Below, in pieces: positions 1-64,000 of a stretch of DNA of 64,000 bases (the first letter of the stretch is position 1; each line of letters opens with the position of its first letter). The notes beneath the pieces were generated by a model, which had not been told where the DNA came from, ran no database searches, and saw only the letters and a program-made list of their open reading frames with translations. Location: NCBI GenBank assembly GCA_947650365.1, contig CANTAL010000193.1, positions 1-64,000 of the forward strand. The letters run 5' to 3'. The stretch is from Chamaelirium japonicum. Lineage: Eukaryota > Streptophyta > Magnoliopsida > Liliales > Melanthiaceae. A program made the translations under genes and the position numbers.

Positions 1-1025
1 ATGAATTAGAATGGATACATTCGTGCGAATGAATTATAATGGATCGGACGAATGAATTAGAATGGATCATACGAATGAATTAGAATGGATCAAATGAATG
101 AATTAGAATGATTACATTCATGCGAATGAATTAGAATGGATCGTACGAATGGATTAGAATGGATCGTATGAATGGATTAGAATGGATACATTCGAGCGAA
201 TGAATTAGAATGGATCGTACGAATGAATTAGAATGGATCGTACGAATGGATTAGAATGGATCGTACGAATGAACTAGAATGGATACATTCGTGCGAATGA
301 ATTAGAATGGATCATACGAATGAATTAGAATGGATCGTACGAATGAATTAGAATGGATCTTATGAATGAATTAGAATGGATCGTACAAATGAATTAGAAT
401 GGATCGTACGAATGAATTAGAATGGATACATTCGTGCGAATGAATTAGAATGGATCGTACGAAGGAATTAGAATGGATCGTACGAAGGAATTAGAATGGA
501 TCGTACGAAGGAATTAGAATGGATCGTACGAATGAACTAGAATGGATATATTCGTGCAAATGAATTAGAATGGATCGTATGAATGAATTAGAATGGATCG
601 TATGAGTGAATTAGAACGGATAGTACGAATGAAGTAGAATGGATCGTATGAATGAATTAGAATGGATACATTCGTTCGAATGAATTAGAATGGATCGTAT
701 GAATGAATTAGAAAAGATTGTGCGAATGAATTAGAATGGATCGTACGAATGAATTAGAATAGATACATTCGTGCGAATAAATTAGAATGGATTGTATGAA
801 TGAATTAGAATGGATCGTACGAATGAATTAGAATGGATCGTACGAATGAATTAGAATAGATTGCGTGAATGAATTAGAATGGATCGTACGAATGAATTAG
901 AATGGATCGTACGAAGGAATTAGAATGGATCGGACGAATGAATTAGAATGGATCGTACGATTGAATTAGAATGGATCATACGAATGAGTAAGAATGGATC
1001 GTATGAATGAATTAGATTGGATCGT
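1..1025 (+). repeat. Satellite block 1, forward sense
   Basis: Head-to-tail array of a short monomer. The forward unit is a 16-nt core GAATGAATTAGAATGG followed by a spacer. The common spacer ATCGTAC makes a 23-bp unit; the longer ATACATTCGTGC makes a 28-bp unit and appears roughly every four to six units. Variation is concentrated in the spacer (CATAC, TGTAC, CGTATG forms) while the core is mostly intact. The window starts inside the array, so the true left end is not seen. No coding potential beyond repeat-derived reading frames. I do not recognise this satellite family. Confidence 0.97.
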
Positions 1026-1039
1026 ACGATCCATTCTAA
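1012..1039. repeat. 28-bp near-perfect palindrome at a strand switch
   Basis: Two cores meet head-to-head around TCGTACGA. The 28 bases are self-complementary except for one symmetric mismatch pair. It forms the left border of the single reverse-oriented core in block 2. The same structure recurs at 29494-29521 and 54108-54135. Confidence 0.9.
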
Positions 1040-1053
1040 TTCATTAGCATGGA
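1026..1053 (-). repeat. Satellite block 2, single reverse core
   Basis: One reverse-sense core wedged between forward blocks. Its left border is the centre of the 1012-1039 palindrome and its right border is the loop of the 1030-1076 hairpin. Confidence 0.9.
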
Positions 1054-1076
1054 TCGTGCTAATGAATTAGAATGGA
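1030..1076. repeat. 47-bp perfect hairpin, 20-bp arms and 7-nt loop
   Basis: Left arm TCCATTCTAATTCATTAGCA (1030-1049), loop TGGATCG, and right arm the exact reverse complement (1057-1076). It is built from a variant core carrying TTAGCA. Three further copies lie at 29457-29503, 54071-54117 and 62661-62707. Confidence 0.95.
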
Positions 1077-1590
1077 ATATACGAAAGAATTAGAATGGAT
1101 TGTAGAATGGATCGTACGAATGAATTAGAATGGATCGTACGAATGAATTAGAATAGATCATAGAAATGAATTAGAATGGATCGGGCAAATGAATTAGAAT
1201 GGATGCATTCGTGCAAATGAATTAGAATGGATCGTGCGAATGAATTAGAATGGATATATTTGAACGAATAAATTAGAATGGATCAAATGAATGAATTAGA
1301 ATGGATCGTACGAATGAATTAGAATGGATAGTGCGAATGAATTAGAATCGATCGTACGAATGAATTAGAATGGATCGTACGAATGAATTAGAATGGTTCA
1401 TACGAATGAGTAAGAATGGATCGTACGAATGAATAAGAATGGATCGTACGAATGAATTAGAATGGATCGTACGAATAAATTAGAATAGATACATTCGTCC
1501 GAATGAATTAGAATGGATCATACGAATGAGTAAGAATGTATCGTACGAATGAAATAGAATAGATTGTACGAATGAATTAGAATGGATCCT
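1054..1590 (+). repeat. Satellite block 3, forward sense
   Basis: Forward array resuming after the hairpin. It contains a shortened unit near 1102-1110 (GTAGAATGG, most of a core missing) that recurs beside the other hairpin copies. It ends where GGATCCT abuts AGTACGATCC, a junction without a long palindrome. Confidence 0.95.
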
Positions 1591-1795
1591 AGTACGATCC
1601 ATTCTAATTCATTCGTACGATCCATTCTAATTCATTCATACAATCCATTCTAATTCTTTCACACGATCCATTCTAATTCATTCGTACGATCCATTCTAAT
1701 TCATTCGTGAAATCCATTCTATTTCATTCGTACGATCCATTCTTACTCATTCGTACGATCCATTCTAATTCATTCACACGAATGTATCCATTCGT
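1591..1795 (-). repeat. Satellite block 4, reverse sense
   Basis: About nine reverse units reading CCATTCTAATTCATTC with spacers GTACGAT, ATACAAT, ACACGAT and similar. It ends at the centre of the perfect 14-bp palindrome CATTCGTACGAATG (1789-1802). Confidence 0.95.
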
Positions 1796-3752
1796 ACGAA
1801 TGAATTAGAATAGATTGTACGAATGAATTAGAATGGATTGTACGAATGAATTAGAATGGACCATATTAATAAATTAGAATGGATCGTACGAATGAATTAG
1901 AATGGATCGTACGAATGAATTAGAATGGATCGTACGAATAAATTAGAATGGATCGTACGAATGAATTAGAATGGATCCAACGAATGAATTAGAATGGATC
2001 CTACGAATGAATTAGAATGGATATTAATAAATTAGAATGGATCCTACGAATGGATTAGAATGGATACCTTTGTGCATATGAATTAGAATGGATCGTACGA
2101 ATGAATTAGAATGGATCCTACGAATGAATTAGAATGGATCCTACGAATGAATTAGAATGGATCGTATGGAATGAATTAGAATGGATATATTTGAACGAAT
2201 AAATTAGAATGGATCATACGAATGAATTAGAATGGATCGTACGAATGAATTAGAATGGATAGTGCGAATGAATTAGAATCAATCGTACGAATGAATTCGA
2301 ATGGATCGTACGAATGAATTAGAATGGATCATACGAATGAGTAAGAATGGATCGTACGAATGAATTAGAATGGATCGTACGAATGAATTAGAATGGATCG
2401 TACGAATAAATTAGAATGGATACATTCGTCCGAATGAATTAGAATGGATCATACGAATGAGTAAGAATGGATCGTACGAATAAAATAGAATAGATTGTAC
2501 GAATGAATTAGAATGGTTCCTACGAATGAATTAGAATGGATCGTGTGAAAGAATTAGAATGGATTGTATGAATGAATTAGAATGGATCGTATGAATGAAT
2601 TAGAATGGATCGTACGAATGGATTAGAATGGATCGTACGAATGAATTAGAATGGATCATACGAATGAACTAGAATGGATACATTCGTGCGAATGAATTAG
2701 AATGGATCATACGAATGATTTAGAATGGATCGTACGAATGAATTAGAATGGATCGTACGAATAAATTAGAATGGATCGTACGAATGAATTAGAATATATC
2801 GTACGAATGAATTAGAATGGATCGTACAAAGGAATTAGAATGGATCGTACGAATGAATTAGAATGGATCGTATGAATGAATTATAATGGATACATTCGTG
2901 CGAATGAATTAGAATGGATTGTACGAATGAATTAGAATGGATCGTACGAATAAATTAGAATGGATCGTGTGAAAGAATTAGAATGGATTGTATGAATGAA
3001 TTAGAATGGATCATATGAATGAAATAGAATGGATACATTCGTGTGAATGAATTAGAATGGATCATACGAATGAATTAGAATGGATCGTACGAATGAATTA
3101 GAATGGATCGTACGAATGGATTAGAATGGATCGTACGAATGGATTAGAATGGATACATTCGAGCGAATGAATTAGAATGGATCGTACGAATGAATTAGAA
3201 TGGATTGTACGAATGAATTAGAATAGATCCTACGAATGGATTAGAATGGATACCTTTGTGCATATGAATTAGAATGGATCGTACGAATGAATTAGAATGG
3301 ATAATATGAATGAATTAGAATGGATCGTGTGAAAGAATTAGAATGGATTGTATGAATGAATTAGAATAGATTGTATGAATGAATTAGAATGGATCGTACG
3401 AATGAATTAGAATGGATTGTACGAATGAATTAGAATGGATCGTACGAATGAATTAGAATGAATACATTCGTGCGAATGAATTAGAATGGATACATTCGTG
3501 CGAAAGAATTAGAATAGATCGTATGAATGAATTAGAATGTATCCTATGAATGAATTAGAATGGATCGTGCGAATGAATTAGAATGGATCGTACGAATGAA
3601 TTAGAATGGATCGTGCTAATGAATTAGAATTGATCGAACGAATGAATTAGCATGGATCGTGCTAATGAATTAGAATGGAACGTATGAATGAATTAGAATG
3701 GATCATGTGAAAGAATTAGAATGGATTGTATGAATGAATTAGAATGAATTCG
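1796..3752 (+). repeat. Satellite block 5, forward sense
   Basis: A 1.96-kb forward array. Around 2420-2580 it holds a recognisable higher-order string (ACATTCGTCC spacer, then GAGTAAG core, GAAATAG core, CGTGTGAAAG unit) found in many other blocks. It ends at a hinge with 11-bp arms, GAATGAATTCG (3742-3752) and CGAATTCATTC (3764-3774). Confidence 0.95.
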
Positions 3753-3774
3753 TACGATCCATTCGAATTCATTC
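3742..3774. repeat. Hinge hairpin, class C
   Basis: Perfect inverted repeat with 11-bp arms GAATGAATTCG / CGAATTCATTC and an 11-nt loop, exactly at a forward-to-reverse switch. Copies lie at 21811-21843 and 43999-44031; versions with a mismatch lie at about 31889-31920 and 38609-38640. Confidence 0.93.
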
Positions 3775-4393
3775 GCACGATCCATTCTAATTCATTCATA
3801 TGATCCATTCTAATTCATTCGTACGATCCATTCTAATTCATATGCACAAAGGTATTCATTCTAATCCATTCGTAGGATCAATTCTAATCCATTCGTACGA
3901 TCCATTCTAATTCATTCGTACGATCCATTCTAATTCATTCGCTCGAATGTATCCATTCTAATCCATTCGTACGATCCATTCTAATCCATTCGTACGATCC
4001 ATTCTAATTCATTCGCATGAATGTAACCATTCTAATTCATTTATTTGATCCATTCTAATTCAATCATACGATCCATTCTAATTCATTCGTCCGATCCATT
4101 CTAATTCATTCGCACGAATGTATCCATTCTAATTCATTCGTACGATCCATTCTAATTCATTCGCACGATCCATTCTAATTCATTCATAGGATCCATTCTA
4201 ATTCATTCGTACGATCTATTCTAATTCTTTCGCACGAATGTATCCATTCTAATTCATTCGCACGAATGTATCCATTCTAATTCATTCGTACGATCCATTC
4301 TAATTCATTCGCACGATCCATTCTAATTCATTCGTACGATCGATTCTAATTCATTCACACGAATGTATCCATTCTAATTCATTCGTACGATCC
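3753..4393 (-). repeat. Satellite block 6, reverse sense
   Basis: Reverse array with several long spacers of the GCACGAATGTAT type and one rare spacer ATGCACAAAGGTAT near 3841. It returns to forward sense at 4393/4394 (GATCC then TGAATTAG) with no obvious palindrome. Confidence 0.95.
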
Positions 4394-5782
4394 TGAATTA
4401 GAATGGATCGTACGAATGAATTAGAATGGATAACTTTGTGCATATGAATTAGAATGGATCGTACGAATGAATTAGAATGGATCATATTAATAAATTAGAA
4501 TGGATCGTACGAATGAATTAGAATGGATACATTCGTGCGAATGAATTAGAATGGATCGTGCGAATCCATTAGACTGGATCGTGCGAATGAATAAGAATGG
4601 ATCATACGAATAAATTAGAATGGATCGTACGAATTAATTAGAATGGATACATTCGTGCGAATGAATTAGAATGGATTGTATGAATGAATTAGAATGGATC
4701 GTACGAATGAATTAGAATGGATCATACGAATTAATTAGAATGGATCATACGAATGAATTAGAACGGATCGTACGAATGAATTAGAATGGATCGTACGAAT
4801 GAACTAGAACAGATACATTCATGCGAATGAATTAGAATGGATCGTACGAATGAAATAGAATGGATCGTACGAATGAATTAGAATGGATCTTACGAATGAA
4901 TTAGAATGGATCGTACGAATGAATTAGAATGGATCGTATGAATGAATTAGAATGGATCGTACGAATGAATTAGAATGGATACATTCGTGCGAATGAATTA
5001 GAATGGATCGGACGAATGAATTAGAATGGATCGTACGAATGAATTAGAATGGATCAAATGAATGAATTAGAATGGTTACATTCATGCGAATGAATTAGAA
5101 TGGATCGTACGAATGGATTAGAATGGATACATTCGTGCGAATGAATTAGATGGATTGTATGAATGAATTAGAATAAATCGTACGAATGAATTAGAATGGA
5201 TCGTATGAGTGAATTAGAATGGATACGAAGGAATTAGAATGGATCGTACGAAGGAATTAGAATGGATCATACGAATGAAATAGAATGGATCGTACGAGGG
5301 AATTAGAATGGATCGTAAGAAGGAATTAGAATGGATCGTACGAAGGAATTAGAATGGATCGTACGAAGGGATTAGAATGGATATATTCGTGCAAATGAAT
5401 TAGAATGGATCGTATGAATGTATTAGAGTGGATCGTATGAGTGAATTAAAACAGATAGTACGAATGAAGTAGAATGGATCGTATGAATGAATTAGAATGG
5501 ATACATTCGTGCGAATGAATTAGAATGGATCGTATGAATGAATTAGAATAGATTGTGCGAATGAATTAGAATGGATCGTACGAATGAATTAGAATGGATA
5601 CATTCGTGCGAATAAATTAGAATGGATTGTATGAATGAATTAGAATGGATCGTACGAATGAATTAGAATGGATCGTACGAATGAATTAGAATAGATTGCG
5701 CGAAGGAATTAGAATGGATCGTGCGAATGAAATAGAATGGATATAAATGAATTAGAATGGATCATACGAATGAATTAGAATG
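4394..5782 (+). repeat. Satellite block 7, forward sense
   Basis: Forward array with a local run of core variants in which GAATGAATT has become GAAGGAATT (about 5226-5370), suggesting recent local expansion of one variant. It ends GAATG/ACGATCC at 5782, a junction repeated at 56578. Confidence 0.95.
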
Positions 5783-5953
5783 ACGATCCATTCTTACTCA
5801 TTCGTATGATCCATTCGAATTTATTCGCACGAATGTATCCATTCTAATTCATTCGTACGTCTAATTCATTCGTACGGTCCATTCTAATTCATTCGCACAA
5901 TCCATTCTATTTCATTCGTACGATCCATTCTTACTCATTCGTATGATCCATTA
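5783..5953 (-). repeat. Satellite block 8, short reverse block
   Basis: A 171-bp reverse block containing a truncated unit (GTACGTCTAATTC). It is closely similar in order and length to 56579-56748, including both borders, so the two are copies of one inverted segment. Confidence 0.94.
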
Positions 5954-8355
5954 TCGATACATTCATGCGAATGAATTAGAATGGATCATACGAATGAGTA
6001 AGAATGGATCGTACAAATGAAATAGAATGGATTGTGCGAATGAATTAGAATGGATCGTACGAGTGAATTAGAATGGATCGTGTGAAAGAATTTGAATGGA
6101 TTGTATGAATGAATTAGAATAGATCGTATGAATGAATTAGAATGGATCGTACGAATGAATTAGAATGGATCATACAAATGAATTAGAATGGATACATTCG
6201 TGCGAATGAATTAGAATGGATACATTCGTGCGAAAGAATTAGAATAGATCGTATGAATGAATTAGAATGTATCCTATGAATGAATTAGAATGGATCGTGC
6301 GAATGAATTAGAATGCATCGTACGAATGAATTAGAATGGATCGTGCTAATGAATTAGAATTGATCGAACGAATGAATTAGCATGGATCGTGCTAATGAAT
6401 TAGAATGGAACGTACGAATGAATTAGAATGGATCGTGTGAAAGAATTAGAATGGATTGTATGACTAATGAATTAGAATGGATCGTGTGAAAGAATTAGAA
6501 TGGATCGAACGAATGAATTAGAATGGATTGTGCGAATGAATTAGAATGGATTGTACGAATGAATTAGAATGGATACATTTGTGCGAATGAATTAGAATGG
6601 ATCGTACGAATGAATTAGAATGGATCGTATGAATGAATTAGAATGGATCGTACGAATGAATTAGAATGGATCGTGCGAATGAATTAGAATGGATCGTACG
6701 AATGAATTAGAATGGATCATACGAATGAAGTAGAATGGATACATTCGTGCGAATGAATTAGAATGGATCGTACGAATGAATTAGAATGGATCGTACGAAT
6801 GAATTAGAATGGATCTTACGAATGGATTAGAATGGATCGTACGAATGAATTAGAATGGATCGTACGAATGAATTAGAATGGATACATTCGTGCGAATGAA
6901 TTAGAATAGATCGGACGAATGAATTAGAATGGATCGTTCGAATGAATTAGAATGGATCGTACGAATGAATTAGAATGGATCGTACGAATAAATTAGAATG
7001 GATACATTCGTCCAAATGAATTAGAATGGATCATACGAATGAGTAAGAATGGATCGTACGAATAAAATAGAATAGATTGTACGAATGAATTAGAATGGAT
7101 TCGTACGAATGAATTAGAATGGATACATTTGTGCGAATGAATTAGAATGGATCGTACCAATGAGTAAGAATGGATCGTACGAATGAAATAGAATGAATAG
7201 TGCGAATGAATTAGAATGGATCGTACGAATGAATTAGAATGGATCGTGTGAAACAATTAGAATGGATTGTATGAATGAATTAGAATAGATCGTATGAATA
7301 AATTAGAATGGATCGTACGAATGAATTAAAATGGATTGTACAAATGAATTAGAATGGATCGTATGAATGAATTAGAATGAATACATTCGTGCGAATTAAT
7401 TAGAATGGATACATTCGTGCGAAAGAATTAGAATAGATCGTATGAATGAATTAGAATGGATCCTATGAATGAATTAGAATGGATCGTGCGAATGAATTAG
7501 AATGGATCGTACGAATGACTTAGAATAGATCGTATGAATGAATTAGAATAGATCGTACGAAGGAATTAGAATGGATCGTACGAATGAATTAGAATGGATA
7601 TATTTGTGCAAATGAATTAGAACGGATCGTATGAATGTATTAGAATGGATCGTATGAGTGAATTAGAATGGATCGTACGAATGAATTAGAATGGATTGTA
7701 TGAATGAATTAGAATGGATCGTACGAATGAATTAGAATGGATCAGACGAATTAATTAGAATGGATCGTACGAATGAATTAGAATGGATCGTACGAATGAA
7801 TTAGAATGGATCGTACGATTGAATTAGAATGGATACATTCGTGCGAATGAATTAGAATGGATTGTGCGAATGAATAAGAACAGATCGTGCGAATGAATTA
7901 GAATGGATCGTACGAATGAATTAGAATGGATCGTGCGAATGAATTAGAATGGATCGTACAAATGAATTAGAATGGATCGAGCGAATGAATTAGAATGGAT
8001 CGTACGAATGAATTAGAATGGATCGTGTGAAAGAATTAGAATGGATCGTACGAATGAATTAGAATGGATCGTGCGAATGAATTAGAATGGATCGTACGAA
8101 TGAATTAGAATGGATCGTACTAATGAATTAGAATTGATCGAACGAATGAATTAGCATGGATCGTGCTAATGAGTTATAATGGATCGTACGAATGAATTAG
8201 AATGGATCGTGCAAATGAATTAGAATGGATCGTACGAATGAATTAGAATGGATACATTTGTGCGAATGAATTAGAATGGATCGTACGAATGAATTAGAAT
8301 GGATCGTGCGAATGAATTAGAATGGATTGTGCGAATGAATTCGAATGGATCGTAC
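5954..8355 (+). repeat. Satellite block 9, forward sense
   Basis: A 2.4-kb forward array. Units with TTAGCA cores and CGTGCTAATG spacers occur near 6340-6400 and 8130-8170. The start near 5954 matches 56749 onward. It ends at the class B hinge 8333-8365. Confidence 0.95.
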
Positions 8356-8365
8356 GAATTCATTC
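8333..8365. repeat. Hinge hairpin, class B
   Basis: Arms GAATGAATTC (8333-8342) and GAATTCATTC (8356-8365) are perfect reverse complements around a 13-nt loop. They mark a forward-to-reverse switch and create two GAATTC sites. Copies: 24832-24864, 43098-43130, and 20956-20988 with one mismatch. Confidence 0.93.
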
Positions 8366-8719
8366 TAATTCATTCATACAATCCATTCTAATTCTTTCAC
8401 ATGATCCATTCTAATTCATTCGTATGTTCCATTCTAATTCATTAGCACGATCCATGCTAATTCATTCGTTCGATCAATTCTAATTCAGTAGCACGATCCA
8501 TTCTAATTCATTCGTACGATCCATTCTAATTCATTCGCACGATCCATTCTAATTCATTCATAGGATCCATTCTAATTCATTCATACGATCTATTCTAATT
8601 CTTTCGCACGAATGTATCCATTCTAATTCATTCGCACGAATGTATCCATTCTAAGTCATTCGTACGATCGATTCGAATTCATTCGTACGATCCATTCTAA
8701 TTCATTCATACGATCTATT
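8356..8719 (-). repeat. Satellite block 10, reverse sense, interrupted by retrotransposon
   Basis: Reverse array broken inside a monomer by the copia element. Joining the flanks across one CTATT gives an uninterrupted monomer (CGATCTATTCTAATTCATTC), so blocks 10 and 11 were one block of about 1.76 kb before insertion. Confidence 0.95.
8715..8719. other. Target-site duplication, left copy
   Basis: CTATT immediately before the TG of the 5' LTR. It matches CTATT at 18634-18638. A 5-bp duplication is the usual length for Ty1/copia integrase. Confidence 0.93.
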
Positions 8720-10062
8720 TGTTAGAATTGGTGAGGTCTATAGCTCGTAAAAACCTAGTGTTTAGCTTTGTATGGTTGATAGTATAGGAATGCATATTGG
8801 TACGTACCTTAGTACGTGTTCTGATTACAGAACAGAGAGCCATGGCTACATGGTAATCCACTTGAGTGGGAGACTCAATGGATTGGTCCCATGTAACCTA
8901 AATACGTTCGCAGCTCTGATTAGGGTTGGTCGCCCTATCAGGATAAGCTGTTGGGATGACAGAGCGTGGGTGTCTCCACCACGGTCATTACCAGGCACAG
9001 TGTCTGTGGCCGAACGGAACCAACACGGTGCACAGATCGGTGAGCAGACACCGGTGCACTAAACCGTGTTTCTGCTTAGGGTAAAACGGTCCTAAACCCT
9101 GAGGAGCCATGTCTGGTGGACTAACCAGTTGTGTGGTGCTTTGGCGCACCAATGTGTGAGGATCCGGATGCAGTGATCCAAAACCACGGTGTACTGGGTT
9201 ACCCGGCTGGCGTTGCATCAGCATGTCACTCCTGCAGGCTATCCACACCCCTAACGGGAGGTGCGTTCCTTGGTCTGACCTACGTCGTATTAAACCCTGG
9301 CCAGGTGGTCATTAGTTGGACTGATGACGGATCCGGTTGCTCGTCAGAGTAATCGGAGGTACGATGTATGTGGTCAACCTGGAAGGAACCGAGTCATATG
9401 AGCACTCGAGTCTGACGGTATTCTCCATCGCTCGAGTTGCATCATGGCACCAGTGGAGGGACAGCGAGTTTACCATACTAAACGGAGAGCAGGGGTATGT
9501 GGGAGAACATAGTAAGTCCGGGGGGATTGGAGTGTAGCCTGCGTCGCACTCTGGGTGGCTACGCAGGTTAACTCGAACTCAGAGGATCGATGGTACACTC
9601 GGGTAGTGTGTCGATCGAGTCTGAGTTGGAAGCCATGAACCCTGGTCCCTGAAGGTTCCACCTTATCGACATTATGTATGGTTCTTATACCATCTCCTCG
9701 AAACACAGAACGTAGTTAGAGGAAGCGAGAAGTCCAAGCATACGCTCCATGAGTGCTTCGCACTAGTGCTCGGTAGATGCGTAGCTACGTGTGTGCACTA
9801 AGGGGAAACCCTAGGTTAGTGCAGAGACGCATGTAGCAATTCCTTGCCATAAGTGGACTTTGCCACATGGGTGCGATGCACCGGGACATGTTGCGAGTTG
9901 ACTAGTTGACTTCACTAGGGGCACCCTACGGGAACCTCAGAGAATAGTGAAATCACTGGTGCACTTCACTTATGTGTGCCTTGTAAAGTCTCGTACACGA
10001 GGAACGACCAACTAGTGACATAAGGGCGTTTTGGTCATACCATGCGCCACTATGCACTAAGG

Positions 10063-10104
10063 GGGCCGGCCCTAAGTGTTGAGAGACTGGTCAAGGCCGG
10101 CCCC
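10063..10104. promoter_or_regulatory. Paired GGCCGG palindromes in U3
   Basis: GGGCCGGCCC (10063-10072) and GGCCGGCCCC (10095-10104) lie 22 bp apart, with further GGCCGG copies near 10139 and 10279. Clustered GC palindromes a few hundred bases before a TATA box could be factor sites. The function is inferred only; the 3' LTR carries the same set. Confidence 0.35.
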
Positions 10105-10224
10105 ATTAGTTTCGGGAGGTTGTTGCCTCCGATGAAGGGGCCGGTTATGAGGCGCAGAAAACGGGCTGGTTTTGACCGTTTTCGAAAACAAGGAAAGGAT
10201 AGAGATAAAGAAGAGATATATAGG

Positions 10225-10300
10225 GATAAGGCTTGAATCAATCATCCTTATCCATACTGTCCTTATCCATATGGATAGGCCGGCTATATATATGATAAGG
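10225..10300. promoter_or_regulatory. Cluster of GATAAGG / CCTTATC motifs upstream of TATA
   Basis: Four GATAAGG-type motifs lie in 76 bp: 10225 (forward), 10246 and 10261 (as CCTTATCC) and 10294 (forward, overlapping the TATA region). GATAAG is the plant I-box, bound by MYB-like and GATA factors in known promoters. Density and position suggest a promoter module; activity is not shown by sequence alone. Confidence 0.4.
10285..10293 (+). promoter_or_regulatory. TATA box of the 5' LTR
   Basis: TATATATAT in the context GGCCGGCTATATATATGATAAG. It is the best TATA candidate in the LTR, followed about 90-140 bp later by a CT-rich leader. Transcription would be expected to begin near 10315-10325. 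Confidence 0.6.
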
Positions 10301-11050
10301 AGAGAGAGGGTGCACGAAATTCATAGAGCCATGCAAGCCCTAGGGCTGGCCATGGCATGGGAAAACCCTAGCCGCCCCCTCTCCTCTCTTCGCATCTCCT
10401 CTCTCGTCTCTCTCTCTCTCGCTTGCGCCATTGGATGGCGACTCGTCTTCCTCACGTGGTGTTTCGTAGAAGGAGAAGGCTCGTCGTATGGAGGCACTCA
10501 GAGATCCATCAACGAGGTGCCGTGCATCGTGTGAGATCGGGTGAACTAGAAGGCGTCTCCCGCAACCTTTTGCTGTCCAGAATCTGCACAGAAAATCAAC
10601 GTTGTTTCTGCGATTCCGGGAGCTACAGAAGTCCAAACGATGTGAAACTTGTTGGAAAGGTTGCGTCTCGAAGTTGGCTACCTGCAGTCCAAATTTCAGC
10701 CCAATCGGAGTTCGGAGCAGAAAGTTATGGCCGTCACACCGAAGCTATGTTGAGCAGATCCGTAGCCCGTCTCCATCGACAAAGAAGAAATTTGTCGCGG
10801 TGAAAGATTCCGCACGCAGGTATGACCTCTAACAAGTAGATCTAACATAATTAGAACATGCATTCATGCTAGTTTGTTCTTTCGCGTTAGATCATCGTTA
10901 GGGGTTCGCGTAGTTGCCATGCTAGATTCATACACGCATATGTAGATCGTTTCGATGAAAATTTTGATATGTAACGTACACCGCTCATGGTCCTCGGACC
11001 TTCACTTTGCTTCCGCTGCGGGCCTCTACCATGGATTTATTTCCAACAAT

Positions 11051-11062
11051 TGGTATCAGAGC
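11051..11062 (+). other. Primer-binding site, initiator-Met tRNA
   Basis: TGGTATCAGAGC starts 2 bp after the LTR end. It is the standard plant copia primer-binding sequence, complementary to the 3' end of initiator methionine tRNA, and it starts minus-strand cDNA synthesis. The match continues only weakly after GC. Confidence 0.93.
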
Positions 11063-13117: not shown

Positions 13118-13393
13118 ATGTCTGGAAGGCGAAGTCAGTCGACTCATCGCTTTTCCACTAAGATACTTGTCGGTACCAAGATGTTAGAGGGAATGCTTGT
13201 TCGGGAACACATCCTTGAGTTCCAGATCGAACTAGATTCCAAAGACATAGTACCAGATGACGAGGTGGTGGAAGACGTCTATCTTGCATCCCTGTCTGGA
13301 ACCTTCGAAGGCGTTATCAGAGACTTTAGCTTTAACAAGTTAGAGATGATAAACGCAGAACTTCTAAGGAGATTTCCAAGAGACAAAGGATGA
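13118..13393 (+). pseudogene. gag remnant (copia-type UBN2-like)
   Basis: A 91-residue open stretch and the longest clean coding remnant in the element. From residue 22 it follows the pattern of the copia Gag central domain: KMLEGMLVREHILEF, then an acidic segment with PDDEVVEDV, LASLSGTFEGVI, and a closing NKLEMINAELLRRF segment. This corresponds to the usual order EG-x-V-x-EHV, DDE-x-V, SLP-x-S, then the MN...L-x-EL tail in plant copia Gags. The N-terminal half expected of a full Gag is not readable, and a stop follows DKG. Gag would form the virus-like particle. The frame (coordinate modulo 3 = 2) is shared with the zinc-knuckle and protease traces downstream. Confidence 0.65.
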
Positions 13394-52082: not shown

Positions 52083-54094
52083 CATTCATACGATCCATTC
52101 TAATTCATTCGTAAGATCTATTCTAATTCATTCGTACGATCCATTCTAATTCATTCGTATGATCCATTCTAATTCATTCGCACGAATGTATCCATTCTAG
52201 TTCATTCGTACGATCCATTCTAATTCATTCGTACAATCCATTCTAATTCATTCATACGATCTATTCTAATTCATTCATACAATCTATTCTAATTCTTTCA
52301 CACGATTCATTCTAATTCATTCGTATGATCCATTCTAATTCATTCGTACGATCCATTCTAATTCATTTGTACGATCCATTCTAATTCATTCGTACAATCC
52401 ATTCAATTTCATTCGTACGATCCATTCTTACTCATTCGTATGATCCATTCAAATTCATTCGCACGAATGTATCCATTCTAATTCATTCATACAATCCATC
52501 TAATTCATTCCGTACGATCCATTCTAATTCATTGGTACGATCCATTCTATTTCATTCGTACGATCCATTCTTACTCATTGGTACGATCCATTCAAATTAA
52601 TTTGTATGATCCATTCTAATTCATTCATACGATCCATTCTAATTCATTCATACAATCCATTTAGATTCATTCGCACAAATGTATCCATTCAAATTCATTC
52701 GTACGATCCAGTCTAATTCATTCGTACGATCCATTCTAATTCATTCTCACGAATATATCCATTCTAATTATTTCGTACGATGCATTCTAATTCATTCGTA
52801 CGATCCATTCTAATTCATTTATTTGATCCATTCTAATTTATTCGTACGATCCATTCTAATTCATTCGTCCAATCTATTCTTATTCATTCGTACGATCCAT
52901 TCTAATTCATTCGTACGATCCATTCTAATTCATTCGCACGAATGTATCCATTCTAGTTCATTCGTACGATCCATTCTAATTCATTCGTACGTTCCATTCT
53001 AATTCATTCGTACAATCCATTCTATTTCATTCGTACGATCAATTCTAATTCATTAGCACGATCCATTCTAATTCATTTGTACGATCCATTCAAATTCGTT
53101 CGCACGATCCATTCTAATTCATTCGTACAATCCATTCTATTTCATTCGTACGATCCATTCTTACTCATTCGTATGATCCATTCTAATTCATTCGCACGAA
53201 TGTATCCATTCTAATCCATTCGTACGATCCATTCTAATCCATTCGTACGATCCATTCTAATTCATTCGCATGAATGTAACCATTCTAATTCATTTATTTG
53301 ATCCATTCTAATTCATTCGTACGATCCATTCTAATTCATTCGTCCGATCCATTCTAATTCATTCGCACGAATGTATCCATTCTAAACCATTCATACGATC
53401 CATTCTAATTTATTCTAATTCATCCGTACATACGATCCATTCGAATTCATTCGCACGATCCATTCTAATTCATTCATACGATCTATTCTAATTCATTCAT
53501 ACAATCCATTCTAATTCTTTCACACGATCCATTCTAATTCATTCGTAGGATCCATTCTAATTCTTTCGTACAATCTATTCTATTTCTTTCGTACGATCCA
53601 TTCTTACTCATTCGTATGATCCATTCTAATTCATTCGGACGAATGTATCCATTCTAATTTATTCGTATGATCCATTCTAATTCATTCGTACGATCCATTC
53701 TTACTCATTCGTATGATCCATTCTAATTCATTCGTACGATCCATTCTAATTTATTCGTACGATCGATTCTAATTCATTCGCACTATCCATTCTAATTCAT
53801 TCGTACGATCCATTCTAATTCATTCGTATGATCCATTCTAATTTATTCGTTCAAATATATCCATTCTAATTCATTCGTACGATCCATTCTAATTCATTCG
53901 CACGATCCATTCTAATTCATTCGCACGAATGTATCCATTCTAATTCATTTGCACGATCCATTCTAATTCATTCCTATGATCTATTCTAATTCATTCGTAC
54001 GATCCATTCTAATTCATTCTAATTCATTCATACGATCCATTCTACGATCCATTCTAATTCATTCGTATATTCCATTCTAATTCATTAGCACGAT
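52083..54094 (-). repeat. Satellite block 33, reverse sense
   Basis: Counterpart of block 19 with about 1.5 kb extra (roughly 52.25-53.75 kb). The extra part carries an imperfect join at 53400-53440 (TTTATTCTAATTCATCCGTACATACG). Confidence 0.94.
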
Positions 54095-54117
54095 CCATGC
54101 TAATGAATTAGAATGGA
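54071..54117. repeat. 47-bp perfect hairpin, copy 3
   Basis: 20-bp arms identical to the other copies, loop CGATCCA; paralogue of 29457-29503. Confidence 0.95.
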
Positions 54118-54121
54118 TCGT
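54095..54121 (+). repeat. Satellite block 34, single forward core
   Basis: Paralogue of block 20, between the hairpin loop and the palindrome centre. Confidence 0.9.
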
Positions 54122-54135
54122 ACGATCCAATCTAA
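54108..54135. repeat. 28-bp near-perfect palindrome, copy 3
   Basis: Same 28 bases as 29494-29521. Confidence 0.9.
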
Positions 54136-56115
54136 TTCATTCATAAGATCCATTCTTACTCATTCGTATGACCCATTCTAATTCAATCGTACGATCCATT
54201 CTAATTCATTCGTACGATCCATTCTAATTCATTCGTACGATCCTTTTTAATTCATTCGTACGATCCATTCTAATTCATTCGCGCAATCTATTCTAATTCA
54301 ATCGTACGATCCATTCTACTTCATTCATACGATCCATTCTAATTCATTCATACAATCCAATCTAATTTATTCGCACGAATGTATCCATTCTAATTCCTTC
54401 GTACGATCCATTCTAATTCATTCGTACGATCCATTCTAATTCATTCATATGATCCATTCTAATTCATTCATATGATCCATTCTAATTCATTCATACAATC
54501 CATTCTAATTCTTTCACACGATCCATTCTAATTCATTCGTAGGATCCATTCTAATTCATTCGTACAATCTATTCTATTTCATTCGTACGATCCATTCTTA
54601 CTCATTCGTATGATCCATTCTAATTCATTCGGACGAATGTATCTATTCTAATTTATTCGTACGATCCATTCTAATTCATTCGTACGATCTATTCTAATTC
54701 ATTCGTACGATCCATTCTAATTTATTCGTCCGATCCATTCTAATTCATTCACACGAATATATCCATTCTAATTCATTCGTATGATCCATTCTAATTCATT
54801 CGTACAATCCATTCTAATTCATTCGTAAGATCCATTCTAATTCATTCGTACGATCCATTCAAATTCATTCGTACGATCCATTCTAATTCATTCGCACGAA
54901 GGTATCCATTCTAGTTCATTCGTACGATCCATTCTAATTCATTCGTACGATCCATTCTAATTCATTCGCACGATCCATTCTAATTCATTCGTACGATCCA
55001 TTCTAATTCATTCATATGATCCATTCTAATTCATTCGTACGATCCATTCTAATTCATTCGCACAAATGTATCCATTCTAATTCATTCGTACGATCCATTC
55101 TAATTCATTCGCACGATCCATTCTAATTCATTCGTACGATCCATTCTAATTCATTCGCACGATCTGTTCTTATTCATTCGCACAATCCATTCTAATTCAT
55201 TCGCACGAATGTATCCATTCTAATTCATTCGTACGATCCATTCTAATTCATTCGTACGATCCATTCTAATTCATTCGTATGATCCATTCTAATTAATTCG
55301 TATGATCCATTCTAATTCATTCGTACGATCCATTCTAATTTATTCATACGATTCATTCTAATTCATTCGCACGAATGTATCCATTCTAATTAATTCGTAC
55401 GATCCATTCTAATTAATTCGCACGAATGTATCCATTCTAATTCATTCGCACGATCCATTCTAATTCATTCGTACGATCCATTCTAATTCATTCGTACGAT
55501 CCATTCTAATTCATTCGTAGAATCCATTCTAATTCATTCGTACAATCTATTCTATTTCATTCGTCCATTCTTACTCATTCGTATGATCCATTCTAATTCA
55601 TTCGAACGAATGTATCCATTCTAATTTATTCGTACGATCCATTCTAATTCATTCGTACGATCCATTCTTACTCATTCGTACGATCCATTCTAATTCCTTC
55701 GTACGATCCATTCTAATTCCTTCGTACGATCCATTCTAATTCATTCGTACGATCCATTCTAATTCATTCGTACGATCCATTCTAATTCATTCGCACGAAT
55801 GTATCCATTCTTATTCATTCGTACGATCCATTCTAATTCATTCATACGATCCATTCTAATTCATTCGTAAGATCCATTCTAATTCATTCGTACGATCCAT
55901 TCTAATTCATTCGTACGATCCATTCTAATTCATTTGCACGAAAGTATCCGTTCTAGTTCATTCGTACGATCCATTCTAATTCATTCGTATGATCCATTCT
56001 AATTCATTCGTAAGATCCATTCTAATTCATTCGTACGATCCATTCTAATTCATTCGCACAATCCATTCTAATCCATTCATAGGATCCATTCTAATTCATT
56101 CATACGATCTATTCC
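54122..56115 (-). repeat. Satellite block 35, reverse sense
   Basis: Third copy of the segment represented by 29508-31473 and 36101-38193, ending in the same CGATCTATTCCG junction. Confidence 0.95.
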
Positions 56116-56168
56116 GTACGAATGAATTAGAATGGATCGTGTGAAAGTATTAGAATGGATTGTATGAA
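56116..56168 (+). repeat. Satellite block 36, short forward remnant
   Basis: Only about two units, the start of the block 22/24 sequence, cut off inside GAATG where the next reverse block begins. It marks the end of the copy B duplication. Confidence 0.9.
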
Positions 56169-56306
56169 TGTATCCATTCTAATTTATTCGCATGAATGTA
56201 TCCATTCTAATTCATTCGTACGTTCCATTCTAATTCATTCGCACAATCTATTCTAATTCATTCATACGATCCATTCGAATTCATTCGCACGAATGTATCC
56301 ATTCGT
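56169..56306 (-). repeat. Satellite block 37, reverse sense
   Basis: 138 bp, ending at CATTCGTGCGAATG (56300-56313), a palindrome with a two-base mismatch at its centre. Confidence 0.92.
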
Positions 56307-56578
56307 GCGAATGAATTAGAATGGATCGTATGAATGAATTAGAATAGATTGTGCGAATGAATTGGAATGGATCGTACGAATGAATTAGAATGGATACATT
56401 CGTGCAAATAAATTAGAATGGATTGTATGAATGAATTAGAATGGATTGTACGAATGAATTAGAATGGATCGTACGAATGAATTAGAAAAGATTGCGCGAA
56501 TGAATTAGAATGGATCGTGCGAATGAAATAGAATGGATACAAATGAATTAGAATGGATCATACGAATGAATTAGAATG
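56307..56578 (+). repeat. Satellite block 38, forward sense
   Basis: Similar to about 5500-5782, including the unusual ATACAAATGAATTAG (ATATAAATG at 5750) unit just before the border. It is the left part of a distal copy of the 5.5-6.3-kb region. Confidence 0.93.
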
Positions 56579-56748
56579 ACGATCCATTCTAACTCATTCG
56601 TATGATCCATTCTAATTTATTCGCACGAATGTATCCATTCTAATTCATTCGTACGTCTAATTCATTCGTACGGTCCATTCTAATTTATTCGCACAATCCA
56701 TTCTATTTCATTCGTACGATCCATTCTTACTCATTCGTATGATCCATT
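56579..56748 (-). repeat. Satellite block 39, reverse sense
   Basis: Copy of block 8 at offset 50,796, including the truncated GTACGTCTAATTC unit. Ends in ATCCATTATGGAT (56742-56754). Confidence 0.94.
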
Positions 56749-57137
56749 ATGGATACATTCGTGCGAATGAATTAGAATGGATCATACGAATGAGTAAGAA
56801 TGGATCGTACGAATGAAATAGAATGGATTGTGCGAATGAATTAGAATGGATCGTACGAATGAATTAGAATGGATCGTGTGAAAGAATTAGAATGGATTGT
56901 ATGAATGAATTAGAATAGATCGTATGAATGAATTAGAATGGATCGGACAAATGAATTAGAATGGATACATTCGTGCGAATGAATTAGAATGGATACATTC
57001 GTGCGAAAGAATTAGAATAGATCGTATGAATGAATTAGAATGGATCCTATGAATGAATTAGAATAGATCGTACGAATGAATTAGAATGGATCGTACGAAT
57101 GAATTAGAATGGATACATTCGTGCGAATGAATTAGAA
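56749..57137 (+). repeat. Satellite block 40, forward sense
   Basis: Copy of the start of block 9. Ends at a GAATTC site (57135-57140) where sense flips. Confidence 0.93.
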
Positions 57138-57193
57138 TTCCTTCGTACGATCCATTCTAATTCATTCATACAATCCATTCTAATTCTTTCACA
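57138..57193 (-). repeat. Satellite block 41, short reverse block
   Basis: About two and a half units, ending TTTCACA/GATCGTATG without a palindrome. Confidence 0.9.
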
Positions 57194-58339
57194 GATCGTA
57201 TGAATGAATTAGAATGGATCGTACGAATGAATTAGAATGGATCGTGTGAATGAATTAGAATGGATCGTACGAATGAATTAGAATGGATCGTACGAATGAA
57301 TTAGAATGGATCATATTAATGAATTAGAATGGATCGTACGAATGAAATATAATGGATCGTACGAATAAATTAGAATGGATACATTCGTCCGAATGAATTA
57401 GAATGGATCATACAAATAAGTAAGAATGGATCGTACGAATGAAATAGAATAGATTGTACGAATGAATTAGAATGGATCCTACGAATGAATTAGAATGGAT
57501 CCTACGAATGAATTAGAATAGATTGTATGAATGAATTAGAATGGATCGTACGAATGAATTAGAATGGATCGTACGAATGAATTAGAATGGATACATTCGT
57601 GCGAATGAATTAGAATTGATCGTACGAATGAATTAGAATGGATCGTGCGAATGAATTATATGGATCGTACGAATGAATTAGAATGGATCGTAGGAATGAA
57701 CTAGAATGGATACATTCATGCGAATGAATTAGAATGGATCGTACGAATGAATTAGAATGGATCGTACGAATGAATTAGAATGGATCTTACGAATGAATTA
57801 GAATGGATTGTACGAATGAATTAGAATGGATCGTACGAATGAGTTAGAATGGATTGTACGAATGAATTAGAATGGATCGTACGAATAAATTAGAATGGAT
57901 ACATTCGTCCGAATGAATTAGAATGGATCATACGAATGAGTAAGAATGGATCGTACGAATGAAATAGAATGGATCGTACGAATGAACTAGAATGGATACA
58001 TTCGTGCGAATGAATTAGAATGGATCGTACGAATGAATTAGAATAGATCGTACGAATGAATTAGAATGGATACATTCGTGCGAATGAATTAGAATGGATC
58101 GGACGAATGAATTAGAATGGATCGTACGAATGAATTAGAATGGATCGTACGAATGAATTAGAATGGATCGTACGAATAAATTAGAATGGATATATTCGTC
58201 CGAATGAAATGGATCATACGAATGAATTAGAATGGATCGTACGAATGAATTAGAATGGATCATATTAATGAATTAGAATGGATCGTACGAATGAATTAGA
58301 ATGGATACATTCATGCGAATGAATTAGAATGGATCGTGC
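57194..58339 (+). repeat. Satellite block 42, forward sense
   Basis: Contains three copies of the ACATTCGTCC higher-order marker or its variant (about 57379, 57900, 58191). Ends GTGCATGAATG, where TGCA is the only palindrome. Confidence 0.94.
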
Positions 58340-58997
58340 ATGAATGTATCCATTCTAACTCATTCGTACGATTCATTCTGCACAAAGGTATCCATTCTAA
58401 TCCATTCATAGGACCCATTCTAATCCATTCGTACGATCCATTCTAATTCATTCGTACGATCCATTCTAATTTATTCGCTCGAATGTATCCATTCTAATCC
58501 ATTCGTACGATCCATTCTAATTCATTCGCATGAATGTAACCATTCTAATTTATTCATTTGATCCATTCTAATTCATTCGTACGATCCATTCTAATTCATT
58601 CGTCCGATCCATTCTAATTCATTCGCACGAATGTATCCATTCTAATTCATTCGTATGATCCATTCTAATTCATTCGTACGTTCCATTTTAATTCATTCGT
58701 AAGATCCATTCTAATTCATTCGTACGATCCATTCTATTTCATTTGTACGATCCATTCTAATTCATTTGCACGAATGTATCCATTCTAGTTCATTCGTACG
58801 ATCCATTCTAATCCATTCGTACGATCCATTCTAATTCATTCGCATGAATGTAACCATTCTAATTCATTCATTTGATCCATTCTAATTCATTCGTACGATC
58901 CATTCTAATTCATTCGTCCGATCCATTCTAATTCATTCGCACGAATGTATCCATTCTAATTCATTCGTACGATCCATTCTAATTCATTCGTAGGATC
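58340..58997 (-). repeat. Satellite block 43, reverse sense
   Basis: Starts with a cut monomer (GATTCATTCTGCACAAAGGTAT). Two similar stretches (58499-58640 and 58799-58950) form a local repeat of about 0.3 kb. Confidence 0.94.
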
Positions 58998-59126
58998 TTA
59001 GAATGGAATATACGAATGAATTAGAATGGATCGTACGAATGAATTAGAATGGATCGTATGAATGAATTAGAATGGATCGTACGAATGAATTAGAATGGAT
59101 CGTGCGAATGAATTCGAATGGATCGT
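58998..59126 (+). repeat. Satellite block 44, short forward block
   Basis: Starts TTAGAATGGAATATACG, the sequence that follows the hairpin at 1076 and 62707, and ends at the palindrome GGATCGTACGATCC (59120-59133). Confidence 0.92.
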
Positions 59127-60470
59127 ACGATCCATTCTAATTCATTCATACAATCCATTCTAATTTATTCGAACGAATGTAACCATTCTAATCCATTCGT
59201 ACGATCTATTCTAATCCATTCGTACGATCCATTCTAATTCATTCGCACAAATATATCCATTCTAATTCATTCGTACGATCCATTCTAATTCATTCGTACG
59301 ATCCATTCTAATTAATTCGTACGATCCATTCTAATTCATTCGTACAATCTATTCTATTCCATTCTAATTCATTCGTACGATCCATTCTTACTTATTCGTA
59401 CGATCCATTCTAATTCATTCGTACGATACATTCTTTCACACGATCTATTCTAATTCATTCGTAGGATCCATGCATTCTAATTCATTCGTACAATCTATTC
59501 TATTTCATTCGTACGATCCATTCTTACTCATTCGTATGATCCATTCTAATTCATTCGGACGAATGTATCCATTCTAATTTATTCGTACGATCCATTCTAA
59601 TTTATTAATATGGTCCATTTTAATTCATTCGTACGATCCATTCTAATTCATTCGTACGATCCATTCTAATTCATTCGCACGATCCATTCTAATTCATTCG
59701 TACGATCCATTCTAATTCATTCATACGATCCATTCTAATTCATTCGTACGATCCATTCTAATTCCTTCGTACGATCCATTCTAATTCATTCGTACAAATG
59801 TAACCATTCTAATTCATTCATACGATTCATTCTAATTCATTCGTATGAGCTATTCTAATTCATTCGTACGATCCATTCTAATTCATTCGTAAGATCCATT
59901 CTAATTCATTCGTACGATCCATTCTAATTCATTCGTACGATCCATTCTAATTCATTCGTACGATCTATTCTAATTCATTCGCACGAATGTAACCATTCTA
60001 ATTCATTCATACGATTCATTCTAATTCATTCGTATGAGCTATTCTAATTCATTCGTACGATCCATTCTAATTCATTCGTACGATCCATTGTAATTCTTTC
60101 ATACAATCCATTTAGATTCATTCGCACAAATGTATCCATTCAAATTCATTCGTACGATCCATTCTAATTCATTCGTACGATCCATTCTAATTCATTCGCA
60201 CGAATGTATCCATTCTAATTCATTCGTAGAATCCATTCTATTTCATTCGTACGATCCATTCTTACTCATTCGTATGATCCATTCTAATTCATTCATATGA
60301 TCCATTCTAATTCATTCGTACGATCCATTCTAATTCATTCGTATGATCCATTCTAATTCATTCGTCCGATCCATTCTAATTCATTCGCACGAATGTATCC
60401 ATTCTAATTCATTCGTACGATCCATTCTAATTCATTCGTACGATCCATTCTAATACATTCATACGATCTA
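59127..60470 (-). repeat. Satellite block 45, reverse sense
   Basis: Includes irregular units near 59345-59480 (fused cores CTATTCTATTCCATTC and GATCCATGCATTC) and a tandem pair of stretches containing GTATGAGCTATTC (59845, 60034). Confidence 0.94.
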
Positions 60471-61090
60471 TTTGTGCAAATGAATTAGAATGGATCGTAT
60501 GAATGTATTAGAATGGATCGTATGAGTGAATTAGAATGGATCGTACGAATGAATTAGAATGGATTGTATGAATGAATTAGAATGGATCATACGAATGAAT
60601 TAGAATGGATCGTGTGAAAGAATTAGAATGGATTGTACGAATGAATTAGAATGGATCCTATGAATGAATTAGAATAAATCGTGCGAATGAATTAGAATGG
60701 ATCGTACAAATGAATTAGAATGGATCAAATGAATAAATTGAATGGTTATATTCATGCGAATGAATTAGAATGGATCGTACGAATGGATTAGAATGGATCG
60801 TACGAATGGATTTGAATGGATACATTCGAGCGAATGAATTAGAATGGATCGTACGAATGAATTAGAATGGATCGTACGAATCGATTAGAATGGATCCGAC
60901 GAATGGATTAGAATGGATACCTTTGTGCATATGAATTAGAATGGATCGTACGAATGAATTAGAATGGATCATATTAATGAATTAGAATGGATCGTACGAA
61001 TGAATTAGAATGGATCGTGTTAAAGAATTAGAATGCATTGTATGAATGAATTAGAATGGATCATATGAATGAATTAGAATGGATCGTGCG
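60471..61090 (+). repeat. Satellite block 46, forward sense
   Basis: Starts inside a long spacer (TTTGTGCAAATG). Ends GGATCGTGCG/ATTCATTC. Confidence 0.94.
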
Positions 61091-62684
61091 ATTCATTCTA
61101 ATTCATTCGCACGAATATATCCATTCTAATTCTTTCGTACGATGCATTCTAATTCATTCGTTCGATCAATTCTAATTCATTAGCACGATCCATTCTAATT
61201 TATTCGTACGATCCATTCTAATTCATTCGCATGATTCATTCTAATTCATTCATAGGATCCATTCTAATTCATTCATACGATCTATTCTAATTCTTTCGCA
61301 CGAATGTATCCATTCTAATTCATTCGCACGAATGTATCCATTCTAATTCATTCGTACGAATCCATTCTAATTCATTTGTACAATCTATTCTATTTTATTC
61401 GTACGATCCATTCTAGTTCATTCGTACGATCCATTCTAATTCATTCGTACGATCCATTCTAATTCATTCGTATGATCCATTCTAATTAATTCGTATGATC
61501 CATTCTAATTCATTTGTATGATCCATTCTAATTCATTCATACAATCCATTCTAATTCATTCGCACGAATGTATCCATTCTAATTAATTCGTACGATCGAT
61601 TCTAATTCATTCGTATGATCCATTCTTATTCATTCGCACGATCCAGTCTAATGGATTCGCACGATCCATTCTAATTCATTCGCACGAATGTATCCATTCT
61701 AATTCATTCATACGATCCATTCTAATTCATTCGTACGATCCATTCTAATTCATTCGCACAAATGTATCCATTCTAATTCATTCGTACGATCCATTCTAAT
61801 TCATTCGTACGATCAGTTCTAATTCATTCACAAAATCTATTCTAATTCATTCATATGATCCATTCTAATTCATTCGCACGATCCGTTCTAATTCATTCGT
61901 ACGATCCATTCTAATTCTTTCACACGATCCATTCTAATTCATTCGTACGATCCATTCTAATTCATTCGCCCGATCCATTCTAATTCATTCGTACGATCCA
62001 TTCTAATTCATTCATACGATCCATTCTAATTCATTCGTACGATCCATTCTAATTCATTCGCATAAATGTATCCATTCTAATTCATTCGTACGATCCATTC
62101 TAATTCATTCGCACGATCCATTCTAATTCATTCGTACGATCCATTCTAATTCATTCGTATGATCGAGTCTAATTCATTCGTATGATCCATTCTAATTAAT
62201 TCGTATGATCCATTCTAATTCATTCGTACGATCCATTCTAATTCATTCATACAATCCATTCTAATTCATTCGCACGAATGTATCCATTCTAATTAATTCG
62301 TACGATCCATTCTAATTCATTCGTGTTATCTATTCTTATTCATTCGCACGATCTAGTCTAATTGATTCGCACGATCCATTCTAATTCATTCGCACGAATG
62401 TATCCATTCTAATTCATTCGTACGATCCATTCTAATTCATTCGTACGATCCATTCTAATTTATTCGTAAGATCCATTCTAATTCATTCGTATGATCTATT
62501 CTTATTCATTCGCACGATCCAGTCTAATTGATTTGCACGATCCATTCTAATTCATTCGCACGAATGTATCCATTCTAATCCATTCATACGATCCATTCTA
62601 ATTCATTCATACAATCCATTCTAATTCTTTCACACGATCCATTCTAATTCATTCGTACGATCCATTCTAATTCATTAGCATGGA
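61091..62684 (-). repeat. Satellite block 47, reverse sense
   Basis: Its first kilobase parallels 39.3-40.2 kb and 44.2-45.2 kb, including the CAGTCTAATGGATTCG and CACAAAATC variants. Ends in the loop of hairpin copy 4. Confidence 0.95.
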
Positions 62685-62707
62685 TCGTGCTAATGAATTA
62701 GAATGGA
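62661..62707. repeat. 47-bp perfect hairpin, copy 4
   Basis: Same orientation as copy 1 (loop TGGATCG) and followed by the same GAATATACG and shortened GTAGAATGG units, but without the adjoining 28-bp palindrome. Confidence 0.95.
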
Positions 62708-62996
62708 ATATACGAATGAATTAGAATGGATCGTAGAATGGATTGTACGAATGAATTAGAATGAATTAGAATGGATCGTACGAATGAATTAGAATGGATC
62801 GTACAAATAAATTAGAATGGATCGTACGAATGAATTAGAATGGATCGTGCGAATGAATTAGAATGGATACATTTGTGCGAATGAATTAGAATGGATCGTA
62901 CGAATGGATTAGAATGGATCGTACGAATGGATTTGAATGGATACATTCGTGCGAATGAATTAGAATGGATTGTATGAATGAATTAGAATGGATCGT
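62685..62996 (+). repeat. Satellite block 48, forward sense
   Basis: Ends at the centre of GGATCGTACGATCC (62990-63003). Confidence 0.94.
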
Positions 62997-63125
62997 ACGA
63001 TCCATTCGAATTCATTCGCACGATCCATTCTAATTCATTCGTACGATCCATTCTAATTCATTCATATGATCCATTCTAATTCATTCGTACGATCCATTCT
63101 AATTCATTCGTATATTCCATTCTAA
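62997..63125 (-). repeat. Satellite block 49, short reverse block
   Basis: Starts CCATTCGAATTCATTC. Ends GTATATTCCATTCTAA/GATCCTACC, the reverse counterpart of the 58997 junction. Confidence 0.92.
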
Positions 63126-63292
63126 GATCCTACCAATGAATTAGAATGGATCGTACGAATGAATTAGAATGGATCGTACAAATGAATTAGAATGGATCGT
63201 GCGAATGAATTAGAATGGATACATTCGTGCGAATGAATTAGAATGGATCGGACGAATGAATTAGAATGGATCGTACAAATGAATAAGAATTA
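63126..63292 (+). repeat. Satellite block 50, short forward block
   Basis: About seven units, ending GAATAAGAATTA/GGACGAATGTAT. Confidence 0.92.
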
Positions 63293-64000
63293 GGACGAAT
63301 GTATCCATTCTAATTTATTCGTACGATCCATTCTAATTCATTCGTACGATCCATTCTAATTCATTCGTACGATCCATCCTAATTCATTCGTCCGATCCAT
63401 TCTAATTCATTCGCACGAATGTATCCATTCTAATTCATTCGTACGATCCATTCTAATTCATTCGTACGATCCATTCTAATTCATTCGTAAGATCCATTCT
63501 AATTCATTCGTACGATCCATTCTAACTCATTCGTACGATCCATTCTAATTCATTCGCACGAATGTATCCATTCTAGTTCATTCGTACGATCCATTCTATT
63601 TCATTCGTACGATCCATTCTTACTCATTCGTATGATCCATTCTAATTCATTCGGACGAATGTATCCATTCTAATTTATTCGTACGATCCATTCTAAATCA
63701 TTCGTACGATATATTTTAATTCATTCGTACGATCCATTCTAATTCATTCGTCCGATCCATTCTAATTCATTCGCATGAATGTATCCATTCTAATTCATTC
63801 GTACGATCCATTCTAATTCATTCGTAAGATCCATTCTAATTCATTCGTACGAACCATTCTAATTCATTCGTACGATCCATTCTAATTCATTCGCACGAAT
63901 GTATCCATTCTAGTTCATTCGTACGATCCATTCTAATTCATTCGTACGATCCATTCTAATTCATTCGCACGATCCATTCTAATTCATTCGTATCGTGCGA
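63293..64000 (-). repeat. Satellite block 51, reverse sense, runs off the window
   Basis: Two successive copies of a roughly 350-bp higher-order string starting GGACGAATGTATCC (63293, 63653). The last bases (GTATCGTGCGA) may be the start of another flip, but too little remains to tell. Confidence 0.93.

Follow-up and report, generated by a model that had tools for sequence, protein, structure and literature searches.

Many orientation flips in a Chio-type satellite array of Chamaelirium japonicum look like copies of older flips

Does every change of strand in a satellite array that alternates in orientation record an event of its own, or have the changes themselves been copied? This question is raised by a stretch of 64,000 nucleotides from Chamaelirium japonicum (assembly GCA_947650365.1, contig CANTAL010000193.1, positions 1 to 64,000), here called the window, in which tandem arrays of a 23-bp monomer and its 28-bp variant switch strand again and again. 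Our data show that the 49 flips of the window are not 49 independent events and that many of them look like copies of older flips. With a probability of about 0.86, we read the window as lying within a centromere unit of Chionographis japonica (Chamaelirium japonicum in NCBI) or of a very close relative, built from the satellites Chio1 and Chio2 and carrying a young long terminal repeat (LTR) retrotransposon, in which flips that originated by strand switching have been multiplied by duplication.

The 23-bp monomer and the 28-bp variant occupy 54 kb, all of it outside the single LTR retrotransposon. Matches to a 14-bp core, allowing at most two mismatches, numbered 885 on the forward strand and 1,316 on the reverse strand and delimited 51 blocks. 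Since 10 first-order Markov controls of the same length and composition as the array gave only 0 to 1 matches on the forward strand and 0 to 4 on the reverse strand, a chance origin of the core matches is excluded. Same-strand distances between cores of less than 80 bp (n = 2,153) were 23 bp in 1,737 cases and 28 bp in 306. Orientation flips numbered 49, with blocks 10 and 11 having the same sense and being parted only by the retrotransposon. An independent count with a two-strand hidden Markov model (HMM), run over both parts of the array, gave 50 flips, of which the additional one, at 63990, hangs on the final 10 bases of the window (63990 to 64000). Among the 51 blocks are three with just one core each (1029, 29491, and 54105), which are copies of one another; the monomers at 29488 to 29507 and 54102 to 54121 are oriented opposite to the inverted monomer at 1025 to 1044. 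A preliminary description of the window had proposed that one 23/28-bp family fills the array in 51 blocks with about 49 flips, which both counts confirmed, and its reading of the array as a plant satellite is upheld as well.

That description did not recognize the monomer, which fits Chio1/Chio2 of Chionographis japonica, a holocentric lilioid; this centromere satellite binds CENH3 and is enriched in chromatin immunoprecipitation with CENH3 (PMC10264360). According to the passages of that paper considered here, Chio1 (23 bp) is dominant and Chio2 (28 bp) is less abundant, Chio1 having a 5-bp deletion and one substitution; the two are intermingled, with forward and reverse arrays mixed, and the monomers carry an 8-bp dyad with a predicted hairpin between neighbors. 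The consensus sequences that we derived de novo, the 23-mer GAATTAGAATGGATCGTACGAAT (1,737 units) and the 28-mer GAATTAGAATGGATACATTCGTGCGAAT (306 units), are exactly one 5-bp deletion and one substitution apart, and two neighboring 23-bp monomers are predicted to form an 8-bp stem through TCGTACGA (-6.8 kcal/mol; z = -3.53). Furthermore, the 9-mer TTCGTACGA, given in passages of PMC12722358 as common to the 23-bp Chio monomer and the Chama monomer of Chamaelirium luteum, is present in our 23-mer, where it reads on the strand complementary to the one given above. The satellite is almost certainly Chio1/Chio2, an identity that rests on the published description rather than on the published letters (Fig. 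3b and Supplementary Table 4). Arrays of this kind bind CENH3 and make up the units of the holocentromere (PMC10264360). As passages of the 2025 paper also report frequent alternation of orientation in Chio arrays (PMC12722358), both the satellite and its alternating orientation are already known in print, and the novelty that the preliminary description had attached to the alternating array drops in light of the 2023 and 2025 papers. A search for the exact 23-mer gave no matches in collections of genome contigs and viral contigs, from which the window's own genome is possibly excluded, and a search of article texts with 12- to 13-letter words of the monomer returned only papers unrelated by title.

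The relationships among the flips emerged from their junctions. Clustering of 120-bp junctions at similarity thresholds of 0.75 to 0.8 placed the 25 flips of the (+-) type in 11 families and the 24 of the (-+) type in 10 to 12, for a total of 21 to 23; the largest (+-) family has 11 members, with both orientations represented. When flips were instead clustered by 150-bp flanks on both sides, 18, 27, 32, and 36 components were obtained at thresholds of 0.7, 0.75, 0.8, and 0.85, respectively. A fair range for the number of distinct flips is therefore about 21 to 36 of the 49. The repeated inversion put forward in the preliminary description holds in part, many of the flips being copies carried by segmental duplication. 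The junction shared by 3747, 21816, and 44004, on the one hand, and 62996, on the other, occurs in two forms, one seamless at TCGTACGA and one slightly changed (GAATGAATTCGTACG). That flip junctions have been copied in Chio is not described in the passages of PMC10264360 and PMC12722358 considered here, a statement that concerns these passages and makes no claim of absence in print.

Flip copies are carried within duplicated segments. When 345-bp segments of pure orientation (n = 338) were compared with the rest of the window, a copy with an identity of 90% or more existed for 285 of them and one with 97% or more for 160. The inverted copy beats the direct one in 85 segments (with 7 ties) versus 160 expected if orientation were irrelevant, so direct copies prevail; among the 28 of 55 duplication chains listed, direct chains extend up to 2.8 kb. 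One block of 12 flips is largely collinear with a second block (Table 1), in which 10 of the flips recur in order, 22 to 25 kb away, and the collinear partner is the best two-flank match for 9 of the 12. Full collinearity was rejected: flip 27014 matches its collinear partner on both flanks (0.83 and 0.76), but 23104 and 46428 are better matches, flip 31472 has a collinear match on its left flank only, and flip 31896 has none. Three flip pairs likewise have copies (Table 1); within the pairs 58997-59126 and 62996-63125, only 59126 and 62996 match by both flanks at 0.75. Separately, we observed that the junctions of the collinear flips 24858 and 48208, as well as those of 27014 and 50063, differ, as if a small deletion had remodeled them after duplication; at 48208, the arms of an inverted repeat are thereby left only 16 bases apart, versus 154 at 24858.

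The flips most likely arose as occasional strand switches during the repair of breaks or forks. Some of these switches would be inverted duplications, leaving inverted repeats at a few flips, whereas the others, lacking such arms, would be inversions or joins at microhomology. Once formed, the flips most likely multiplied by being carried along in segmental duplications ranging from hundreds of bases to kilobases, mostly direct and more rarely inverted.

In an alternative scenario, which we consider unlikely, fold-back copying (hairpin-capped or palindromic) would produce most flips, each being the center of an inverted duplication. The monomers do contain a self-complementary 8-mer, and strong inverted repeats lie at flips 21342 and 48208 (Table 1), at 43484, the counterpart of 21342 (827 bp; 92.5%), and at 43124 (338 bp; 96.4%). 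The arms at 21342, 43484, and 48208 probably arose by inverted duplication. However, these three flips represent few events because all of them sit in two duplicated blocks; flips whose flanking inverted repeats are strongest cluster in the block copies at 20000 to 28000 and 42000 to 50000.

Across all testable flips, arm likeness showed no average excess with arms of 300, 600, or 1,000 bp. Ranked within a null that includes related segments, a flip's own right arm had a mean rank of 0.48 with 600-bp arms (48 of 49 flips) and 0.49 with 1,000-bp arms (46 of 49), where 0.5 is expected, even though ranks of 0.05 or less occurred at 6 of 48 flips (2.4 expected) and 4 of 46 flips (2.3 expected), respectively. 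With 300-bp arms, testable at 26 of the 49 flips, the mean score was 165 versus 160 for mismatched arms; the lowest tail fraction was 0.07, and five flips fell between 0.07 and 0.10. This test has to be read with the caveat that the symmetry of old fold-back events may be lost. The best inverted copies are mostly distant, with only 11 of 181 within 3 kb, yet the best direct copies are likewise distant (11 of 265). Neighboring monomers of the same sense are predicted to pair via TCGTACGA, so hairpin potential needs no flips; the region of flip 59126 is predicted to be foldable into a long hairpin. Fold-back copying, as suggested in the preliminary description, thus has support at only a few flips, led by 21342, 43484, and 48208; comparable traces are absent from the others.

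Rather improbable, in our assessment, is the idea that the palindromic core TCGTACGA, identical on both strands, is the recombination site at which flips arise. Flips 1025, 62996, 59126, 61090, and 20033 are seamless at this core or one mismatch off, and the break lies inside the core (at most one mismatch) in 5 of 21 family representatives; random joins break there in 8.7% of cases for one flip type and 12.7% for the other. The remaining 16 representatives break elsewhere in the monomer. As the sole site of flipping, the core was rejected, with only 5 of 21 representatives touching it. The position of a breakpoint can slide by a mean of 5.3 and 5.8 positions for the two flip types versus 3.75 and 3.79 in random joins (P of ~0.003 for each type); the paired flips 1025 and 1044 were excluded from this microhomology test, as two flips in one stretch inflate the span, and the means before exclusion were 6.0 and 6.6. 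These breakpoints fit a model in which repair would switch strands where short homologies occur, with the core being at most a mild favorite.

Several points weigh against our account of copied strand switches in a Chio array. The microhomology excess is small, and the representatives used for it include both 62996 and 3747, which belong to one family by junction clustering. Family numbers depend on the threshold, shrinking to 14 (10 plus 4) for junctions at 0.7, and the flank components vary from 18 to 36. Because artificial junctions, with 99th percentiles of similarity of 0.75 and 0.77, reach maxima of 0.83 and 0.90, some families may wrongly merge independent flips. The hairpin control is weak, given that 2 of 200 shuffles fold equally well and that shuffling destroys the tandem repeat. 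A strict search found one uninterrupted dyad in one consensus monomer and none in the other, versus three and four dyad symmetries reported for the two monomers (PMC10264360, in part), although the definitions perhaps differ. Finally, the satellite was matched to Chio1/Chio2 by description and not letter for letter.

This last point leaves room for a different, undescribed satellite of another plant that is merely Chio-like. The sister genus, in the passages of PMC12722358 considered here, instead has a satellite of 60 bp with consistent orientation. Several published particulars of Chio all fit the array, and we consider such a satellite very unlikely. Satellite arrays are prone to misassembly, but that the flips are assembly errors is scarcely credible when the same junction sequences recur at several places with diverged flanks. 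The authors of the C. japonica study themselves report mixed orientation, in a paper that includes a section on HiFi sequencing (PMC10264360, in part).

Table 1. Coordinates of the array, its retrotransposon, and the flips and repeats discussed
Feature	Position	Strand	Evidence or remark
Left part of the Chio-type array (blocks 1-10), orientation mixed	1..8719		core blocks and HMM
Single inverted monomer	1025..1044		copies at 29488-29507 and 54102-54121
Flip pair	5783..5952		copied at 56579-56748 (offset 50796); junction and flank comparison
Target-site duplication CTATT, left	8715..8719	+	read from the sequence
LTR retrotransposon in array, probably Copia-like, interior decayed	8720..18633	+	LTR pair; weak RVT_2 match
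5' LTR, 2329 bp	8720..11048	+	LTR pair
3' LTR, 2329 bp	16305..18633	+	LTR pair; one difference from 5' LTR (counterpart of 9428)
Target-site duplication CTATT, right	18634..18638	+	read from the sequence
Right part of the Chio-type array (blocks 11-51), orientation mixed	18634..64000		core blocks and HMM
12-flip block	20033..31896		largely collinear with 42175-56160; flank matches
Inverted repeat around flip 21342	20456..22342		20456-21321 versus 21483-22342; 866 bp, 95.3%, spacer 161
Flip pair	31472..31896		copied at 38192-38616 (offset 6720); inside ~2.8-kb direct duplication
Copy of flip pair 31472-31896	38192..38616		inside ~2.8-kb direct duplication
Second copy of 12-flip block	42175..56160		offset 22.1-24.6 kb; flank matches
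Inverted repeat centered on flip 48208	47240..49170		arms 47240-48208 and 48225-49170; 986 bp, 88.8%, spacer 16
Flip pair	58997..59126		inverted copy at 62996-63125 (540 bp, 93.7%); sequence comparison

The retrotransposon that divides the array is recent, since its LTRs differ at 1 of 2,329 bp and the CTATT duplication is present. Judging by identity alone, its insertion is probably younger than the surrounding duplications of 93 to 98%. Among the interior stop-to-stop frames listed with a minimum of 60 codons (n = 21), the longest has 118 codons, and a Pfam search of 4 of these 21 frames gave one weak match to the reverse-transcriptase family RVT_2, below the cutoff (E = 0.013; 15.6 bits versus 31.6). 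Nearly identical LTRs without a long interior frame suggest a nonautonomous family that would be mobilized in trans. The sequence TGGTATCAGAGC, which follows the 5' LTR, bears a putative likeness to an initiator-tRNA primer site.

What our analysis adds to the published work, a modest but useful addition, is that flips behave as duplicated passengers with shared junctions. This also corrects a count, as 49 flips do not equal 49 inversions. Shared junction sequences can be used as tags tracing the growth of a megabase centromere unit, and such tags could reveal sequence exchange between units of different chromosomes, which interlocus gene conversion could bring about, as suggested by the authors of the 2023 study (PMC10264360, in part). 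Monomer orientation is probably of little importance for centromere function. A more far-reaching scenario, which we offer only tentatively, is that continual template switching, favored by the self-complementary core and sometimes copying a kilobase-scale inverted duplicate, combines with spread by duplication in Chio, making junctions heritable markers of the copying history of the holocentromere; alternation would then perhaps even be favored, unlike in the uniform Chama arrays.

Among known systems, Chio1/Chio2 resembles the array in monomer lengths, in the deletion and substitution that separate the two forms, in the hairpin of the 8-bp dyad, and in intermingled monomers with mixed forward and reverse arrays; compared by description with the passages considered, it showed no clear difference, although our strict dyad count did not match the reported one (PMC10264360). 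Chama of Chamaelirium luteum shares the 9-mer and is rich in dyad symmetries, but, in the passages considered, it has a 60-bp monomer, consistent long-range orientation, and arrays without retrotransposons (PMC12722358); the array in the window has neither that monomer length nor that consistency. The macro-dyad arrays TmSat1 and TmSat2 of Tribolium madens are putatively (peri)centromeric and, like the array described here, change orientation in kilobase blocks and have recurring sequences at inversion sites, according to the parts of PMC13081366 considered. Whereas TmSat1 and TmSat2 have a unit of ~110 bp and mostly two subarrays per array that tend to symmetry, the array in the window combines a 23/28-bp monomer with many unequal blocks and with inverted repeats at only some of its flips.

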